A DNA stretch of 53,859 bases from Novosphingobium sp. Its GTDB lineage: Bacteria; Pseudomonadota; Alphaproteobacteria; Sphingomonadales; Sphingomonadaceae. The notes beneath the pieces are model-generated. The model saw only the letters and a list, made by a program, of their open reading frames with translations. It was not told the origin of the DNA and searched no databases. This document shows positions 22,254 through 29,764 of this stretch, piece after piece. A program made the position numbers and the translations under genes. The DNA lies in NCBI GenBank assembly GCA_027311705.1, contig DAICYJ010000140.1, forward strand, positions 1 to 53,859, in the 5' to 3' direction. Position 1 is the stretch's first letter. Every line of letters begins with the position of its first letter.

Positions 22254-23126
22254 TTATTCTGCTGCAATCTGGCCGTCGCTGCCCGGCCGTTCGGACAACA
22301 TGCCCTGGATCATCCCTTGCAGGTTGGCATCATAGCGCGCGAGCACGGTGTGATCCTCGGCGGTCTCCCAATGCGTGATCAGTTCACGTCCGTTCCACCA
22401 ATGCAGGGCATAGCCCGGCGGATCGGCGACGATCAGCGCGCGCTGATCGGGCGTGTCGGGGTCTATGGGCCGCAGGTCCAGCGCCACTTGCGGCGCTGTG
22501 GATGGGCAGGTGGCAACCACCAGGTCTTCCCAATGCGTCGTTACCGCGCGGTGGATGTGGCCACACACCAGCCCGATCACGTTGGTGCGCCCGCGCAGGC
22601 AGGCTGCCAGCATTTCCACCCATGGCTCGGCGGGGTCGGTGTTCATCCACGCGATGCCCACTTCGATGGGCGGATGGTGCTGCACGATCAGCGTCTTGCG
22701 GGTCGTTTCCTCGTCCAGCCGCGCGTTCAGCCAGGCCGCGCGCACATCGCAGAATGCGCCGCCGTGGCGGCCTTCCTCCAGCGTATCGAGCACGATCACC
22801 CGCACGGGCAAGTCCTCGATCACATATTGCAGGAAGCCGTCGGCAAAGGCGACTTCGGGGAAAACGGCCTGAAACGTCGCGCGCTCGTCGTGGTTGCCCA
22901 GCGCATAGCGGACGGGGAAGGGCAGGTCGGCCAGTGCCTCGCGCAACCGGCGGTAGCTGTCGGCATCGCCCCGGTCGATCAGGTCGCCGGTTGCCAGCAG
23001 CAGGTCGGGCTGCGGGTTCATCGCGACAAGTTCGGCCACCACGCGGTCCAGCCGCTGGCGGTTGAATTCGCCGGGGCTATCCGGTTCGAAGCCCAGGTGA
23101 ATATCGGTGATTTGGGCGACCAGCAT
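22254..23126 (-). CDS. Class III (CpdA/GpdQ-like) cyclic-nucleotide phosphodiesterase-like metallophosphoesterase
   Basis: Motifs AQITDIHLG, ATGDLIDRGD, ALGNHDER, VQHHPP, VCGHIH. Starts 9 bp after the decaheme cytochrome gene, same strand. Confidence 0.88.
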   Translation of the reverse strand: MLVAQITDIHLGFEPDSPGEFNRQRLDRVVAELVAMNPQPDLLLATGDLIDRGDADSYRRLREALADLPFPVRYALGNHDERATFQAVFPEVAFADGFLQYVIEDLPVRVIVLDTLEEGRHGGAFCDVRAAWLNARLDEETTRKTLIVQHHPPIEVGIAWMNTDPAEPWVEMLAACLRGRTNVIGLVCGHIHRAVTTHWEDLVVATCPSTAPQVALDLRPIDPDTPDQRALIVADPPGYALHWWNGRELITHWETAEDHTVLARYDANLQGMIQGMLSERPGSDGQIAAE

Positions 23127-23135
23127 GGGCGGGCG

Positions 23136-25016
23136 CTATTTCAGGATGGCCGGGAAGCGCGGCCGGTCCGCCACCGCCGTTTGTAGGGCCGGCGCTTTGC
23201 GCTTGTCGGCCGGTTTCCAGGGAGCATCGCTGTCCATGTGATACGCATGACACATCGCGCAGCCCGAATCGACCGGGTCCTTCACTTTAGCGGTGGCCAG
23301 TTTCGCGCCCGCTTCGCCAACATGGCACGAACGGCATCCGCCCGGCCCGTCCATGCCCGGCACCAGCAGGTCGCTGGCGTCGTTCGAACGCTCGGCCTTC
23401 ACGTGGCACGATGCGCAATCGGTCTTGCGGTGGTCCTTATGGTCGAACCAGCCGACGTGGTAATACCGGTCATTCTGCGCCACCCGCTGCACGGTAAAGC
23501 CGCCGGCCGCCGCGCTTCCGCCGCGATTGACGGTGTGGCAATCGAAGCACATCCCGCCCTTGGAAAATACTTGGGCCACCGCCTGATCGCCCTTGGTCGG
23601 ATAGAACCGCACCGCACGGGCATAATCCGCCGCGGTGGAGCGCAGCGCCGCATCGCCCGGCACCCGGCGGGCAAGGCCCGAAAGGTTGGCGGGCCGCGCC
23701 GGAGCGCCGCCGCGATAGAACGCGCGCAGATCGGCCACCACCTGTTCGGGTTCGCCATGCCGCAGCGTGCGGAACGTGCCGCCCACCTGGTCGAAGGTCA
23801 GGCTGTGGCAGCTTTCGCAGGCCTGCTCCATTTCCACCGGCTTGAACCGCGTGCCGCCGGCCTCGATCTTGTGACAATCCTTGCAGCCCAGCGAGTCATT
23901 GGTGGCGAACTGGCCGGGGCGGCGATGGACCATCTGCGCCACGCCGTTCACCTTGGACAAGTGCTGGCCGTGGGTGAACTTCAAGCCGTTGTTTTCCTTC
24001 AGCGTGTCGGTCCAAACCGCGCGCTGCAACAGCGGCTTTTCGCCGTCCATGCCGACGATCACCGTGGGCCGGAACTGCGGGTGCGCCGTCCCGAAATCGG
24101 CGGCGTCGGAGATCTTCGTATCGGGCAAGCGACCCTTCAATCCATCGTGGCAATCGGTGCAGAACTGTTGCCGGGTTGCGGGCATAGCACCCGCGCCCTC
24201 GTGCTCGGTGTGACAATCGACACACCTGCCCGCCGGACGATTGAACGCGGTCGCCACCGCGCGCTGGAATGCGGCGAAGCCCTGCGGCTCGCCCCGTGCC
24301 TTCAGCAGCCTTGCGCCGTCCTTGATATGCTGGTGCGCATCCTGCGTGTGGCAGGTGAGGCAGGCGTTGTCGCGCACCGCGACGAACGGCTCCACATGGC
24401 AGGCCTGGCAATCGTTCTGCAGCTTGCTGTGCGCAACGCTCAGGTGGCCGGACGACCACGCGGTATCGCCATGAACCCCCGCCGGTCGCCGCGCGTCCTT
24501 TTGAAGCGCCAGCGGCTGGTACGTCGCCCAGCTCCAGATCGGGATCGCCAGGAATGCCACCAGCATCAGCAGCGCAAAGGCCCAGGCCGATCCGCGCTTG
24601 CCCGGCAGCAATCCCTTCAGCGTGAACGCAGTGGAAAGCTCCACGTCGCCGGCGCTTTCCGACACCGCTTCCACGCGGCGGACGGTAAAGGTCGGCGCTC
24701 CGGTTTCGGGATCGGCGGAAAGGGTAATGCGATGGCCGCCGAAAGCCAGTTCGGCCCCGGTCGCCACGTCGAGTTCGCGCCGCGTGGTGCTGCGTCCGTC
24801 GACGTCGAACGGCTGATCGCCGATCGATTCGATCATCAGTTTGCCGCCCGAAAGCGGGCTGATCCGCGCATGGAACGGATCGACCGCCAGGTCGGGCAAA
24901 TGGATATCGCAGGCACCGTCGCGCCCAATGGTGATGGCATCAGCTTCGACGGCAGACGGGCGGACGATCTCTTCGCCGCTCGATTTCAGCGCGATCTGGC
25001 GGATCAGGAAGTTCAT
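23136..25016 (-). CDS. FHA domain-TM-decaheme c-type cytochrome fusion
   Basis: N-terminal FHA-like ITIGRDGACDIHLPDLAVDPFHARI; one TM (AWAFALLMLVAFLAIPIWSW); ten CxxCH motifs (CQACH, CLTCH, CVDCH, CTDCH, CKDCH, CESCH, CFDCH, CASCH, CRSCH, CAMCH). Confidence 0.88.
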   Translation of the reverse strand: MNFLIRQIALKSSGEEIVRPSAVEADAITIGRDGACDIHLPDLAVDPFHARISPLSGGKLMIESIGDQPFDVDGRSTTRRELDVATGAELAFGGHRITLSADPETGAPTFTVRRVEAVSESAGDVELSTAFTLKGLLPGKRGSAWAFALLMLVAFLAIPIWSWATYQPLALQKDARRPAGVHGDTAWSSGHLSVAHSKLQNDCQACHVEPFVAVRDNACLTCHTQDAHQHIKDGARLLKARGEPQGFAAFQRAVATAFNRPAGRCVDCHTEHEGAGAMPATRQQFCTDCHDGLKGRLPDTKISDAADFGTAHPQFRPTVIVGMDGEKPLLQRAVWTDTLKENNGLKFTHGQHLSKVNGVAQMVHRRPGQFATNDSLGCKDCHKIEAGGTRFKPVEMEQACESCHSLTFDQVGGTFRTLRHGEPEQVVADLRAFYRGGAPARPANLSGLARRVPGDAALRSTAADYARAVRFYPTKGDQAVAQVFSKGGMCFDCHTVNRGGSAAAGGFTVQRVAQNDRYYHVGWFDHKDHRKTDCASCHVKAERSNDASDLLVPGMDGPGGCRSCHVGEAGAKLATAKVKDPVDSGCAMCHAYHMDSDAPWKPADKRKAPALQTAVADRPRFPAILK

Positions 25017-25026
25017 GGCTCTGACC

Positions 25027-25923
25027 TCACCAGTAGAAGAAGACGCTGACGACATGCGCGGAAAGCGCCGCGATCAGCGCGAAGGTGACCGGCACGTGCA
25101 CGTAGAGCCATGCTTGAAGCCATGATTTCAGCTTCAGATGCCGACGCATCCGCGCCAGCATTGCTTCCTTGCGCGTCAGCAAGGCATCGACCTTCTCGAT
25201 CGGATCGTCGGCTACGCGCGGCTTGTTGGCACGCATCTGGCGCAATCCCGATGCGGCGCTGCGTGTGGCGTCGCGCGGATAGCGGCCCGTCAGGCGGTTC
25301 CAGAAGCTACCGGCAAAGGGGTCTTCCTCAAGGCTGCGATTGACGAGCGCGGCGGCTTCGGAATCGAGCGGCTGCGCGGCATCGTGGATCTGCCGGTCAA
25401 TCGATCGCAGCGCTTCGACCATCTGCTTTTCGGTGATCGCGCCGTCTTCGTCATAGCGGTTGTCGGATAGCGCGCGGGGCAGCGTGGCGTAAACCCAGAT
25501 GCCGAACATGCCGGAAACGATCACCAGCATCATCAGCCCCCAGGCCAGCGTGTGCACATTCCACCCGAATTCAAAACCCGAATGCAGCGTGCCGACCACG
25601 ATCAGCAGCAGGCCCAGATAGACATGCGCCGATGTCCACGCCTTCAGGCTCCAGCGCCCCGGCGTGATCGCCCGCTTGCGCACGCCCAGCATGGTCAGCC
25701 ACAGGATCAGCAGTGCGCCGATGGTGCCCAACGTATAGCCCAGCCACGTCGATCCGAAGTGCTGCCCCGGCAACGGCACGAAAATATACAGCGCGATCAG
25801 TGCCACCGCGAGCAGCGCCGAAATCTTCAGCCAGCGGCCCTTGCGGTGGGTGAGAAACCCCTCGTGCGTGCTGGTCCGTTGGCGGCTGGCACCCGTGCGG
25901 CGCTTTGATGCAATCGTCGCCAC
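25027..25923 (-). CDS. Multi-TM protein resembling a b-type cytochrome
   Basis: At least five hydrophobic segments with His in or near helices (WTSAHVYLG, GTLHSGFEF, VHTLAWG, YVHVPVTF, LSAHVVSVFFYW); tightly linked to flanking redox genes. Confidence 0.72.
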   Translation of the reverse strand: MATIASKRRTGASRQRTSTHEGFLTHRKGRWLKISALLAVALIALYIFVPLPGQHFGSTWLGYTLGTIGALLILWLTMLGVRKRAITPGRWSLKAWTSAHVYLGLLLIVVGTLHSGFEFGWNVHTLAWGLMMLVIVSGMFGIWVYATLPRALSDNRYDEDGAITEKQMVEALRSIDRQIHDAAQPLDSEAAALVNRSLEEDPFAGSFWNRLTGRYPRDATRSAASGLRQMRANKPRVADDPIEKVDALLTRKEAMLARMRRHLKLKSWLQAWLYVHVPVTFALIAALSAHVVSVFFYW

Positions 25924-25926
25924 GCC

Positions 25927-28503
25927 TCAGGCCCCCTCGTTCTCAAGTCGCGCGACGGTCAGGAACTCGTCGGGCGAAACGCGGATCGCGGCCCCGGTCG
26001 GGCAGGCGCGCACGCAGCTCGGCCCGCCTTCGATGCCTGCACACATGTCGCACTTGATCGCCTTCTTGCGGTCCAGCGCCTCGTCCACCTGCGGGTCGCC
26101 GGTGTATTTCGTGTTCTTTTTCGACCACTTGTAAGGCGGCTCGCCTGGCCCCGGCCCATTGCCGAACAACAGCCAGTTCAGCAGCGACGGCTTCTTGGGC
26201 GGAACCTTGTCCATGCGGATCACGCCGTAAGGGCAATTGCGCTGACAGTTGCCGCAACCGATGCAGGTATCGTTGATGAACACTTCGCCGTCCGGCCCGC
26301 GATGGATCGCGTTGGGCGGGCAATCGGCCATGCAATGCGGGTGCTCGCAGTGGCGGCAGCTGGTCGGCACATGCAGGTGGGCAAAGCTCTTGCCGGCCTC
26401 GCGGTCCAGCCGCGAAAGGCCGTCGTGGCTGTCGGCGCAGGCCTTTTCGCAATTGTCGCAGCCCACGCAAAGCCGTTCGTCGATCAGCAGCACGTCGGTC
26501 GCTTCGCCCAGCCCCTGCGCGACGAGGAACTTGGCCTGTTCGGAATAGAGGTCGACGACGCCGGAGAACCCGTCCTTCTTCGATTCGATGAAGGCGTTGG
26601 TGCGCCGGCGGCCTTCCATGTCGTTGCGCGCGCGTTCCAGCAGCGCGGGCTTGGCATCCAGCACGCGGCGGAATGCCTCGCCATCGATCCTGATGACCTC
26701 GCTCTTGATCGCGGCGCGCACCGTGGCGGTGCGCTGTCCGCCATCGATCAGCGCCATTTCGCCCACGTAGGAACCGGCCGGCAGGTACGACAGGAACACC
26801 GGCTTCCCGCCGATGTCCTTTTCCACGATCATCGATCCCACGCGGATCACGAACACGTCCTTGTCGTCCGCGCCCTCGGTGATCACCGGCTCGCCCGCGC
26901 GCACCTGCATGATTTTGGCGGTATCGACCACTTCGCGCACGTCGTCGCTGCTCAGCCCCGATCCAAACATCTGCAGCAATTGCCGCTCGGTCGAGATGCG
27001 CTCGATCGCGCGCTTGGCGGTGGGCACCTGGCTCTGCAGCTTGAGCGCGGCGTTGCGGCTGATTTCCACGCAGATGCAGTCTTCGGCCGCCACGATGGTC
27101 GCGCCGCGCCGCCGCCCGGAAATCAGGCCCACTTCGCCGAAGATCGAGCCTTTGGGAATTGGCACGACCTTGCTGGAATCGTTCGGATCGATCCGAACGT
27201 GCACCGATCCATCGGCGATGGCGAACAGCGACGATCCCGGCGCGTTCTTCTCGAAGATCGTCTCGCCCTTCTTGTAGAAGCGCGCGTCCGAATCGAGCAT
27301 GAACTCGCGCATCTGCAGCGCGGTCATGCCATCGAGGATGGCGATATTGCCGCGCAGCAGCTCCAGCCATTCATTGACCGACTTGCGCCCCGGCAGGTCG
27401 GCGAACTTGGCTTCGAGCAAAGGCTCGTCCGCCGGTTTCAGATCGGTGTTGCCCGAAATGAACTCGATGACGTCATAGCCCTGGTTCATGCAGTGCTTGA
27501 TCAGCGGATAGCCCGCCAGCGCACCGATCACGAAAATGCCCGGCGCTGTCGATTCAAAGCTGGGCGAAAGCGTCGGGAAGGCCAGCCGGTCGGCACTGGC
27601 GAACTCGATGCCGCACCCTTCGACAAAGCCGCGCGGCGGGGCAGACCCGATACGCGCGATGATCCGGTCGCAGCGGATGCGTTCTTCGCCATCGCGCGTG
27701 GCCAGCGTGATCCAGCCCGGCTCCACCGCTTTGGTCTCGGTTTCATACCGGATCGCCAGCTTGCCGATGGCGTCGTCTTCCACCAGCGCCTTGGCGTTCG
27801 GCTCCTTCGCCGTCGGAAAGCTTTCGCGCACGTTGGTCGATTTCGGCGCACGGTTCAGCACCGTCACCACGTTGCCCTGCGCCGAATCCTCGGCCAGCCC
27901 GCGCGCGTTCTCGATCCCCGCATCGCCGGTGCCCACCACGATGATATGTTCGTCCAGGATCGCATAGGGATCGTCGAGCTGATACGTCACGTGCGGCAGG
28001 TCGGAACCGGGGCAGCGCATCAGGTTCGGGTTGCCCTGCGTGCCGATGGCCAGCACCACGTTCTCGGCCATCACCGTCTCGCCGCTGGTCAGCTCGATGG
28101 CATAGGGCGGGGCGAAACGCTGCACTTCGGTGGTCGTGCTCGATCCGTCGCGCGCGCGGGTGACGATCTTCTGCACCGAACCTTCGATCGCCGGGCCGGT
28201 GCCGCGAATGGATTTCACCTCGGCATTGTACTTCACGTTCACGCCCAGATCGGCGGTGCGCGCGGTCCATTTGTCGAGGATGTCTTCCTTCTTGCCCGCG
28301 TCGAAATCCTGATCGGACCGCAGGATCAGCTGCGATGGCGTAGCCATCACATGCTTGCCCTTCTGGTACTTGAAGATCGTGTCGGACAAGTGGCCCGATT
28401 TTTCGAGCAGCACGTGGTCCAGCTTGCGCGCAGCGGCACGGCTCGCGGCGCTCATCCCCGCCGGGCCAGAACCGATGATCGCAACCTTATAGACTTCGCT
28501 CAC
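25927..28503 (-). CDS. FAD/NAD(P) oxidoreductase-(cNMP-binding)2-4x[4Fe-4S] ferredoxin fusion
   Basis: GSGPAGMSAA FAD motif; GTGDAGIENA NAD(P) motif; two cyclic-nucleotide-binding-like segments (GSIFGEVGLISGRRRGATIVA, GSYVGEMALIDGGQRTATVRA); 16-Cys DmsB-like region (CVGCDNCEKAC, CRHCEHPHCMADCP, CIGCGNCQRNCPYG, CDMC...CVRACPTG). GTG start at 28503; ORF track extends to 28530. Confidence 0.87.
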   Translation of the reverse strand: MSEVYKVAIIGSGPAGMSAASRAAARKLDHVLLEKSGHLSDTIFKYQKGKHVMATPSQLILRSDQDFDAGKKEDILDKWTARTADLGVNVKYNAEVKSIRGTGPAIEGSVQKIVTRARDGSSTTTEVQRFAPPYAIELTSGETVMAENVVLAIGTQGNPNLMRCPGSDLPHVTYQLDDPYAILDEHIIVVGTGDAGIENARGLAEDSAQGNVVTVLNRAPKSTNVRESFPTAKEPNAKALVEDDAIGKLAIRYETETKAVEPGWITLATRDGEERIRCDRIIARIGSAPPRGFVEGCGIEFASADRLAFPTLSPSFESTAPGIFVIGALAGYPLIKHCMNQGYDVIEFISGNTDLKPADEPLLEAKFADLPGRKSVNEWLELLRGNIAILDGMTALQMREFMLDSDARFYKKGETIFEKNAPGSSLFAIADGSVHVRIDPNDSSKVVPIPKGSIFGEVGLISGRRRGATIVAAEDCICVEISRNAALKLQSQVPTAKRAIERISTERQLLQMFGSGLSSDDVREVVDTAKIMQVRAGEPVITEGADDKDVFVIRVGSMIVEKDIGGKPVFLSYLPAGSYVGEMALIDGGQRTATVRAAIKSEVIRIDGEAFRRVLDAKPALLERARNDMEGRRRTNAFIESKKDGFSGVVDLYSEQAKFLVAQGLGEATDVLLIDERLCVGCDNCEKACADSHDGLSRLDREAGKSFAHLHVPTSCRHCEHPHCMADCPPNAIHRGPDGEVFINDTCIGCGNCQRNCPYGVIRMDKVPPKKPSLLNWLLFGNGPGPGEPPYKWSKKNTKYTGDPQVDEALDRKKAIKCDMCAGIEGGPSCVRACPTGAAIRVSPDEFLTVARLENEGA

Positions 28504-28616
28504 CGGCGCTTGCCCCCCGCAACACGGCAAAGTGGCGCTTTTTCAGCGCCTGCTCTCCCAACCCGATTTAGTGCGACCCCGGTCTTTCCAGGACTTTACC
28601 CGAAGGAACGCAGTTT

Positions 28617-28644
28617 GCCAGCCGCAAATTGCCAGCCGCGAATT
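28617..28644. repeat. Tandem 14-bp direct repeat in the divergent intergenic region
   Basis: GCCAGCCGCAAATT then GCCAGCCGCGAATT, 13/14 identical. Confidence 0.75.
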
Positions 28645-28762: not shown

Positions 28763-29764
28763 ATGTCCGAGGCCGAAACCACGCCTGCCCCCGCCGCTTC
28801 CCCGGACAAGGCCACGCCGGCCCGCGCGGGTCGGCTGGCGCTGGCCGCCGCTGCGGTCATGGCGGTCGTGGCGGGCGGCGTCGCCGTCTATCGCGGGCAA
28901 AAGGAAGAGGTAGCGATCGTCGCTCCGCCGTCGGTCAGCGAAAGCCAGGCTCCCTCGGTCGACGACGTGATCGCCAAGCTCGAAGCCAAGCTGAAGGACA
29001 AGCCCGACGATGCCGAAGGCTGGCGCATGCTCGGCTGGTCCTATTTCCAGACCGAACGCTATGCCGAAGCCGCCACCGCGTTGAAGCAGGCGACCAAGCT
29101 CGATCCCGAACATGCCGAGACTTTCTCGTTCCTTGGCGAATCGCTGGTGCTGGCCAGCAACGAGGAAGGCCACATCCCGTGGGATGCCAAGGCCGCGTTC
29201 GACAAGGCGCTGAAGCTCGATCCCAAGGACGCCCGCGCCCGTTATTTCAAGGCGGTGGCGATGGATCTGGGCGGGCAGCACCGCAAGGCGATCGCGGCAT
29301 GGTTCGCCCTGCTGGAAGATACGCCCAAGGACGCGCCCTATGCCGACGACATCCGCGAAGTGATCCGCAATGTCGGCACCAAGCACAAGATCGACGTGGA
29401 AAAGCGGCTGGCCGAAGCGCAGTTCGCGCCGCCGGCCAACGGCATGTCCACCGACGGTGGAGCTATCGCCGCTGCCGGCATTCCCGGGCCCTCGTCCGAC
29501 GAGATCAAGGCCGCGCAAGCCCTGCCCAAGGGCCAGCAGGAAGCGATGATCCGCGGCATGGTCGAAGGCCTTCAGGCCAAGCTGGAAAAGAACCCCGCCA
29601 ATGCCGACGGCTGGATCATGCTGATGCGCAGCCGCATGCAACTGGGCGAACCGGCCAAGGCCGGCAAAGCCCTCACCGATGGTCTCGCCGCATTCCGCAA
29701 CGATCAGGCGTCAGCGCGCAAGCTGCGCGAAGCAGCGGTCACAGTGGGCGTTCCGGGCGCCTGA
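28763..29764 (+). CDS. TPR protein, CcmI/NrfG-like (possible cytochrome c biogenesis factor)
   Basis: Single N-terminal TM and TPRs (DAEGWRMLGWSYFQTERYAEAATALKQATKLDPEHAE...). Confidence 0.7.
   Translation: MSEAETTPAPAASPDKATPARAGRLALAAAAVMAVVAGGVAVYRGQKEEVAIVAPPSVSESQAPSVDDVIAKLEAKLKDKPDDAEGWRMLGWSYFQTERYAEAATALKQATKLDPEHAETFSFLGESLVLASNEEGHIPWDAKAAFDKALKLDPKDARARYFKAVAMDLGGQHRKAIAAWFALLEDTPKDAPYADDIREVIRNVGTKHKIDVEKRLAEAQFAPPANGMSTDGGAIAAAGIPGPSSDEIKAAQALPKGQQEAMIRGMVEGLQAKLEKNPANADGWIMLMRSRMQLGEPAKAGKALTDGLAAFRNDQASARKLREAAVTVGVPGA

Follow-up and report, generated by a model that had tools for sequence, protein, structure and literature searches.

The window, the whole 53,859-nucleotide stretch of Novosphingobium sp. 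DNA analyzed here, contains four closely spaced minus-strand genes, with two short sequence elements and a divergent gene upstream of them. The initial annotation had described the quartet as an operon with gaps of 3, 10, and 9 bp, and the frames, strands, and gaps (in the order FAD gene, cytochrome b gene, FHA-decaheme gene, phosphoesterase gene) were all as claimed. The domain makeup that it gave for the four genes was likewise borne out by Pfam profiles and by the counts of 16 Cys and 10 CxxCH motifs. The features are as follows.

22254-23126, minus strand: calcineurin-like phosphoesterase (CpdA/SpdA-like), 290 aa, a lineage-specific companion (Pfam PF00149)
23136-25016, minus strand: degenerate FHA domain, one TM helix, and periplasmic decaheme cytochrome c, 626 aa (Pfam, motif counts)
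25027-25923, minus strand: diheme b-type cytochrome of the inner membrane with five helices, 298 aa (motifs and AlphaFold2 model)
25927-28503, minus strand: fusion of an FAD/NAD(P) domain (TrxR/YpdA-like), two cNMP-binding domains, and a 16-Cys, four-[4Fe-4S] ferredoxin, 858 aa (Pfam, NCBIfam, and PDB profiles)
28572-28580, minus strand: promoter-region element GGGGTCGCA of the operon, preceded by a TAnnnT box
28614-28628, no strand assigned: TTTGC-N5-GCAAA, a 15-bp palindrome within the divergent promoter region (16 Novosphingobium-type loci)
28763-29764, plus strand: divergent CcmH/CycH-type TPR gene for cytochrome c maturation (PF23914, 5.4e-21)

The FAD gene starts with a GTG at 28503, and a possible alternative start, an in-frame TTG, lies upstream at 28530.

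Conservation of the operon and its promoter region

Three of the genes form a conserved core trio, which encodes the FAD/NAD(P)-(cNMP)2-16Cys ferredoxin, the five-TM diheme-b protein, and the FHA-TM-decaheme protein. Because their order was identical in all 72 of the 72 Sphingomonadales loci with room for the trio, the arrangement is not a matter of chance; the trio was also syntenic in most distant loci of Pseudomonadota, and in two genomes (L152 and L153) the FAD and cytochrome b genes are a single fused gene. The proposal that all four families co-localize therefore stood for the trio, whereas the phosphoesterase accompanied it in 68 of 71 Sphingomonadales loci and was missing beside it in most others. 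Considering this lineage-specific distribution, we ruled out the phosphoesterase as a core component; judged from the loci compared, it is a Sphingomonadales addition to the core.

The GGGGTCGCA element occurs in the promoter regions of both the core operon and a second operon, which lies on contig C140 of this genome and encodes outer-membrane components. The pattern TAnnnT-N6-14-GGGGTCGCA, which was chosen after both promoters had been inspected, has three matches in this genome: the two operon promoters and one tRNA, where the match falls in what appears, by reading the sequence, to be the T-arm. The TTTGC-N5-GCAAA palindrome is partially to fully conserved across the 16 Novosphingobium-type loci, but it is missing upstream of the C140 operon and was ruled out as an operator common to both. 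The divergent CcmH/CycH-type TPR gene adjoins the core in 78 of 120 loci and is outside the conduit proposed below.

Cofactor ligands and the cyclic nucleotide-binding domains

We examined the residues expected to hold cofactors in each core protein. The 858-aa protein matched two cNMP_binding domains (2.8e-33), Pyr_redox_3/2, and Fer4_11/Fer4_7 in Pfam, and its Fe-S domain contains exactly 16 Cys, which are kept in 120 to 121 of 121 homologues. The cytochrome b protein carries W96-x3-H100-x13-H114, S137-G138-xx-G141, and W272-x3-H276-x13-H290; the W, H, and G positions were conserved in 113 of 113 sequences and the Ser in 103 of 113. Its Pfam similarity to Ni_hydr_CYTB (4.6e-6) scored 27.0 bits, under the 30.1 cut-off, and its sequence had no significant match in the PDB. 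An AlphaFold2 model (pLDDT 72) was helical, with the hydrophobic stretches all within five long helices, and a PDB fold search with this model returned none at an E value of ≤0.001. The FHA-decaheme protein matched FHA (7.2e-5) and Cytochrome_C7/C3 and contains exactly 10 CxxCH motifs together with ten further conserved His (196, 230, 272, 312, 349, 352, 420, 526, 529, and 593), so ten bis-His hemes are predicted. The electron path described in the initial annotation, a continuous series from NAD(P)/FAD through four [4Fe-4S] clusters and two b hemes to ten c hemes over the inner membrane, is thus supported by near-invariant cofactor ligands.

The regulatory part of that annotation fared unevenly. 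Its FHA domain had been taken as a site of kinase or phosphothreonine control, and the pocket does retain the Gly-Arg pair, but the Ser that contacts phosphothreonine is substituted in every member inspected; phosphopeptide control through this domain is therefore not supported, and we rejected it. In contrast, both cNMP pockets retain their phosphate-binding residues: the Glu and Arg of each cassette (E457/R466 and E582/R591) are invariant in 121 of 121 homologues. Cyclic AMP or cGMP is the probable ligand of both domains, which would then gate electron transfer from the flavin to the FeS clusters.

CNB domains can, however, serve as structural modules. The two domains might accordingly be structural or bind another ligand, leaving a conduit that lacks second-messenger gating and a phosphoesterase that is a bystander, a reading to which we give real but less than even weight. 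The phosphoesterase is not beside the trio in most non-Sphingomonadales loci, and although it is a Metallophos protein (PF00149, 2.3e-17) with the class III PDE dimetal ligands D8, H10, D48, N78, H150, H190, and H192 conserved in 71 sequences, it scores far under the curated NCBIfam cut-offs for SpdA (129 of 400 bits) and CpdA (94 of 225 bits). Against a purely structural role, domains of that kind need not keep the Glu and Arg that are invariant here in both. The suggestion that the phosphoesterase belongs to the system is weakened by its restriction to Sphingomonadales; in that order it may lower the cNMP signal.

The outer-membrane operon and the direction of electron flow

The C140 operon, absent from the initial reading, encodes a tetraheme cytochrome, an HbpS-like protein, a putative beta-barrel outer membrane protein (OMP), and an LVIVD-decaheme protein and is, as far as sequence features tell, the outer-membrane half of the system. 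The outer module (HbpS-like protein, OMP, and LVIVD-decaheme protein) adjoins the core directly in 22 Sphingomonadales regions and in 22 of 40 other regions. Among 386 Alphaproteobacteria genomes, 36 of which have the FAD protein, every genome with the LVIVD-decaheme protein also had the FAD protein (29 of 29; Fisher 2e-37, without correction for phylogeny). At the genus level, co-occurrence of the LVIVD-decaheme protein with the core was 11 of 11, including genomes with the loci on separate contigs. Seven FAD-positive genomes lacked the LVIVD-decaheme protein, and three of these had a PCC4-like pentaheme/porin instead.

The OMP has a signal sequence, an aromatic C-terminal beta-signal, and nearly no Cys, and it is encoded in an operon with 10-heme and 4-heme genes. 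Since its AlphaFold2 model was poor (pLDDT 36.6, left out of the fold search) and too low in confidence to prove a barrel, the barrel assignment rests on these sequence features and on a beta-rich strand prediction. Neither the OMP nor the LVIVD-decaheme sequence had a significant match in the PDB. MtrB_PioB (PF11854) had no match on the OMP or in this genome, which ruled out an MtrB/PioB barrel.

Gene content, synteny, cofactor ligands, co-occurrence, and the shared promoter element, all evident in the sequences, are together best explained if the core operon is the inner half of a wire from NAD(P)H to the outer surface, and we think it fairly likely that this is so. In the scheme that we infer, including complex formation, outward direction, substrate and acceptor, and cNMP gating, NAD(P)H electrons would enter at the FAD domain, be relayed by the four [4Fe-4S] clusters, and cross the inner membrane through two stacked b hemes to the anchored decaheme protein with its ten bis-His c hemes. 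The tetraheme would pass them to the OM beta-barrel/LVIVD-decaheme module encoded elsewhere in the genome, and from there they would reach an acceptor on the cell surface or outside it. More tentatively, such a conduit could tap NAD(P)H rather than the quinone pool and be opened or closed allosterically by cAMP or cGMP through its two PKA-like cNMP domains.

Electrons could also run inward: the conduit would oxidize an extracellular donor (for instance, Fe(II), Mn(II), or humics in reduced form), the quinone pool would receive the electrons, and reduced NAD(P) or ferredoxin would be produced by the flavoprotein. This reading draws on porin-cytochrome complex 4 (PCC4), a putative complex described by He et al. 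in 2017, which was modeled as electron inflow to the quinone pool and was seen in genomes of Fe(II) oxidizers (PMC5566968). A cluster with a 10-heme "Forkhead-associated protein" is reported in the literature for 27 of 87 Gallionellaceae Fe oxidizers, and multiheme conduits can run reversibly. With a donor at about 0 V, flow to the flavin/NAD(P) end would nevertheless be uphill in both redox and membrane potential, and the core hosts in our sample are mostly Sphingomonadales, which are mostly aerobic heterotrophs. A 2026 survey also argued for export in PCC hosts, which were mostly heterotrophic (PMC13264449). We therefore regard uptake as rather unlikely.

A periplasmic, not extracellular, system, in which electrons would reach a periplasmic or OM reductase (the LVIVD-decaheme or HbpS-like protein as enzyme) for detoxification or redox homeostasis, also seems improbable to us. 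The LVIVD-decaheme protein does combine a beta-propeller with 17 conserved non-CxxCH His, more than ten bis-His hemes need, and the HbpS-like protein is a conserved lipoprotein. However, the gene cluster repeatedly includes a nonheme OMP of the beta-barrel type, a feature of porin-cytochrome complexes, and other lineages combine the same core with an unrelated OMP and a pentaheme, which is the PCC4 layout.

Comparison with known systems

The wire proposed here shares its functional logic with MtrCAB, MtoAB, and PioAB: an inner-membrane donor, a periplasmic multiheme, and an OM barrel plus multiheme. It differs from them in lacking an MtrB_PioB match and in having a flavin/FeS/diheme-b complex instead of CymA at its inner-membrane end. 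The porin-cytochrome conduits known so far are fed from the quinol pool, and to our knowledge none has been reported as gated by a bound second messenger. If the gated reading is right, cyclic nucleotide signaling would be tied directly to electron export, and extracellular electron export under second-messenger control would occur in ordinary aerobic Alphaproteobacteria; the core genes are present in Novosphingobium, Erythrobacter, Sphingobium, and many further alphaproteobacterial families rarely thought of as electroactive. The cytochrome b protein resembles the TM domain of NOX/ferric reductases and bc1 cytochrome b in its H-x13-H pairs on two helices and two b hemes, and NOX also uses NAD(P)H-FAD as donor. 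Unlike these, it has no FRD Pfam match, takes a separate FeS flavoprotein as its predicted donor, and has a multiheme cytochrome c as its predicted acceptor.

The initial annotation knew of no described system with this combination, and literature searches found no description of FHA/cNMP/cytochrome combinations. That view holds for the two canonical cNMP cassettes, the ten predicted bis-His hemes, and the NAD(P)H flavin terminus, which we did not find described, but not for the core as such, which fits PCC4, itself a predicted family. A survey of Sterkfontein karst MAGs published in 2026 defined a large-decaheme PCC "group 1" with a ferredoxin-NADP+ reductase, in which a 4- to 5-kb decaheme gene lies beside an approximately 20-strand porin and a "ferredoxin-NADP+ reductase" is nearby in 7 of 11 cases (PMC13264449). 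Compared by description only, group 1 is very likely the same LVIVD-decaheme/OMP/FAD system; its main text uses Prokka names, and we found no cNMP, FHA, HbpS, or propeller analysis there (PMC13264449).

By its cytochrome b motifs, its numbers of hemes, and its Fe-S gene, the core operon is probably the inner-membrane module of a PCC4-type conduit. As in PCC4, a five-TM inner membrane protein carries SGxxG on TM4 and WX3HX13H on TM3 and TM5, and periplasmic multiheme cytochromes have 10 hemes (FHA-decaheme) and 4 hemes (the C140 tetraheme, 30% identical at 3e-57 to the tetraheme of the PCC4-like locus L159). As in PCC4 subgroup II, a pfam13247 Fe-S gene lies upstream of the inner membrane protein gene: the gene for the 858-aa protein, which matches PF13247 at 5.5e-11, is directly upstream of the cytochrome b gene. 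The two were annotated as one gene in one PCC4 genome, which parallels the L152 and L153 fusions. NAD(P)/FAD, cNMP, and FHA domains have no mention in the PCC4 main text (PMC5566968). Unlike PCC4, the outer module consists of an HbpS-like lipoprotein, the OMP, and the LVIVD-decaheme protein, and two separate loci are used here. The OMP showed no similarity to the L159 porin, the single template sequence compared (hhalign probability of 0.3%). The LVIVD-decaheme protein stands where PCC4 has a pentaheme and has no significant similarity to the L159 pentaheme, a type found only in L158 to L160 among the examined regions. With the LVIVD-decaheme in place of the pentaheme, we filed the system as a PCC4 variant, not a plain member. 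It provides specific genes with which the long-hypothetical PCC4 family could be tested, and the strict co-occurrence with an unlinked OM operon points to the partner genes that such work had lacked.

Conservation of the four-gene operon

The window, part of a Novosphingobium-type genome, encodes four minus-strand genes separated by gaps of 3, 10 and 9 bp, exactly as the initial annotation had described them (Pfam matches in parentheses):

25927-28503, minus strand: 858-aa FAD protein (Pyr_redox, two cNMP_binding domains, 4Fe-4S domains)
25027-25923, minus strand: cytochrome b (Ni_hydr_CYTB, weak match)
23136-25016, minus strand: decaheme cytochrome (FHA, c7/c3 cytochrome)
22254-23126, minus strand: phosphoesterase (Metallophos)

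Using the FAD protein as a query, we retrieved 80 Sphingomonadales loci. The order FAD protein-cytochrome b-decaheme was kept in 72/72 loci with enough contig, and the phosphoesterase came next in 68 of 71. Across 40 regions from sampled Alphaproteobacteria and Pseudomonadota genomes, this trio was mostly intact and the phosphoesterase mostly absent. The FAD protein was found in 36 of 386 Alphaproteobacteria genomes and 15 of 399 Pseudomonadota genomes. Two genomes carry it joined to cytochrome b in a single protein of 1118 or 1123 aa (L152:7850-11206 and L153:3052-6423), which argues for a physical complex. The FAD gene also occurs on 12 Sphingobium replicons filed as plasmids (~0.9-1.3 Mb), one predicted to be conjugative. 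Divergent from the operon lies a CcmH/CycH-type TPR gene (window 28763-29764), which is near the trio in 78/120 loci.

Predicted cofactors and sensory domains

The 16 Cys residues of the Fe-S domain are kept in 120 to 121 of 121 homologues, and four [4Fe-4S] clusters are therefore predicted. Conservation extends to the Rossmann motifs for FAD and NAD(P) and to R218 (115/121); the latter suggests that NADPH may be the preferred donor. In cytochrome b, helices 3 and 5 each carry W-x3-H-x13-H, with every position kept in 113/113, and two b hemes are predicted, as in bc1-type cytochromes. The decaheme combines ten CxxCH motifs with exactly ten further near-invariant His residues; ten bis-His hemes are thus predicted, which makes the protein a probable wire rather than an enzyme.

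In nearly all of the 121 homologues, the phosphate-binding cassette of each cNMP domain has G-E and R-x-A-[TS]; its Glu and Arg are invariant (121/121), and the residues are spaced as in PKA. Among proteins of solved structure, the closest relatives include PKG, CRP and the regulatory subunits of PKA. Judged by these residues, the cNMP pockets proposed initially appear intact, and gating by cNMP would be the simplest reason for both cassettes staying so. Kinase control, also proposed, is not supported, because in all inspected members another residue (V, D, N or L, among others) stands in place of the phosphothreonine-contact Ser of the FHA domain; Gly-Arg is retained. The FHA-decaheme protein weakly matches PF16697 (YscD cytoplasmic domain), and by analogy a docking role is more likely than phosphothreonine sensing.

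A putative outer-membrane half

The initial idea of an electron conduit stands, and the outer membrane can be included in it. Clustering of neighbours revealed a module that recurs next to the trio and consists of an HbpS-like protein, a putative outer-membrane beta-barrel (OMP; signal sequence, C-terminal aromatic beta-signal, hardly any Cys) and a ten-heme cytochrome of ~1330 aa with LVIVD propeller repeats (LVIVD-decaheme). The last adjoins the trio at 22 loci in Sphingomonadales and in 22 of the 40 other regions. The window's genome carries the module as a four-gene operon on another contig, C140 (locus L177):

14948-13533, minus strand: tetraheme
13533-11554, minus strand: HbpS-like protein (PF03928; lipobox-like LAGC), kept together with the OMP/LVIVD-decaheme module
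11557-9581, minus strand: OMP
9578-5022, minus strand: LVIVD-decaheme

At two loci (L140:3532-13047 and L162:146-9640), the FAD gene has the LVIVD-decaheme gene on one side and the tetraheme gene on the other, immediately adjacent and on the same strand, linking both halves in one apparent operon. At another locus (L186, G007:C5:484939-489006), an in-frame TAA or frameshift breaks the LVIVD-decaheme gene, a possible pseudogene or sequencing error.

Among the 386 Alphaproteobacteria genomes, the LVIVD-decaheme is present in 29, all of them (29/29) within the 36 FAD-positive genomes (Fisher 2e-37, not corrected for phylogeny). Three of the seven remaining FAD-positive genomes (L158-160) have a tetraheme, a pentaheme and a different OMP instead. 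Within the genus (25 genomes), the FAD protein is found in 12 and the LVIVD-decaheme in 11, all within those 12, and 13 have neither (p = 3e-6); the sole exception is a 75% complete assembly. Because the loci lie on different contigs in several genomes, tight linkage alone is insufficient to explain this. In the Pseudomonadota sample, 11 of 12 LVIVD-decaheme carriers have the FAD protein.

Two elements lie in the divergent promoter region of the window:

28572-28580: 9-mer GGGGTCGCA, its single occurrence in the whole window
28614-28628: 15-bp palindrome TTTGC-N5-GCAAA

Their conservation varies across Novosphingobium-type loci. In many of these, a -10-like TAnnnT box followed by GGGGTCGCA stands 73-81 nt ahead of the FAD gene start, and the same layout precedes the tetraheme gene by 84-87 nt in the C140 operon and 3/5 relatives. 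The combined pattern has three matches in the 3.2-Mb genome: the two operon promoters and an apparent tRNA. The motif was picked after inspection of both promoters, and a promoter element common to the two operons is suggestive only.

Probable electron flow and relation to catalogued conduits

Electrons would most likely pass from NAD(P)H through FAD, four [4Fe-4S] clusters, two b hemes, ten c hemes and the tetraheme to the outer-membrane module and an external acceptor. We favor this outward direction because redox span and membrane potential, general bioenergetic drivers of such flow, both push electrons outward. The external acceptor, like a role for the HbpS-like lipoprotein, is presumed. 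He et al. favored inward flow to quinone for PCC4, their predicted porin-cytochrome complex (PCC) family (PMC5566968).

As predicted by He et al. 2017 (PMC5566968), PCC4 comprises a porin together with periplasmic cytochromes of 4, 5 and 10 hemes. Its inner membrane protein has five TM segments and carries SGxxG as well as WX3HX13H twice; members of subgroup II also have a pfam13247 Fe-S gene upstream of the gene for this protein, and one genome has the two annotated as a single gene (PMC5566968). Each of these inner-membrane features is present in the trio, so for the core the initial view that no such system had been described was mistaken. The tetraheme is also a homologue of the one in a PCC4-like locus (L159). 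The PCC4 pentaheme is replaced in the outer module, and the OMP has no detectable relation to the L159 OMP. A 2026 survey reports PCCs in which a decaheme of 4-5 kb occurs with a ~20-strand porin and has a ferredoxin-NADP+ reductase nearby (PMC13264449); these are very likely the same variant. A Gallionellaceae cluster with a 10-heme "Forkhead-associated protein" has been listed, with no analysis given (PMC10734462). Our literature search found no description of the inner end, with its NAD(P)H flavin, cNMP tandem and degenerate FHA domain. The system is of a kind already known as a prediction, and it represents a variant of that kind.
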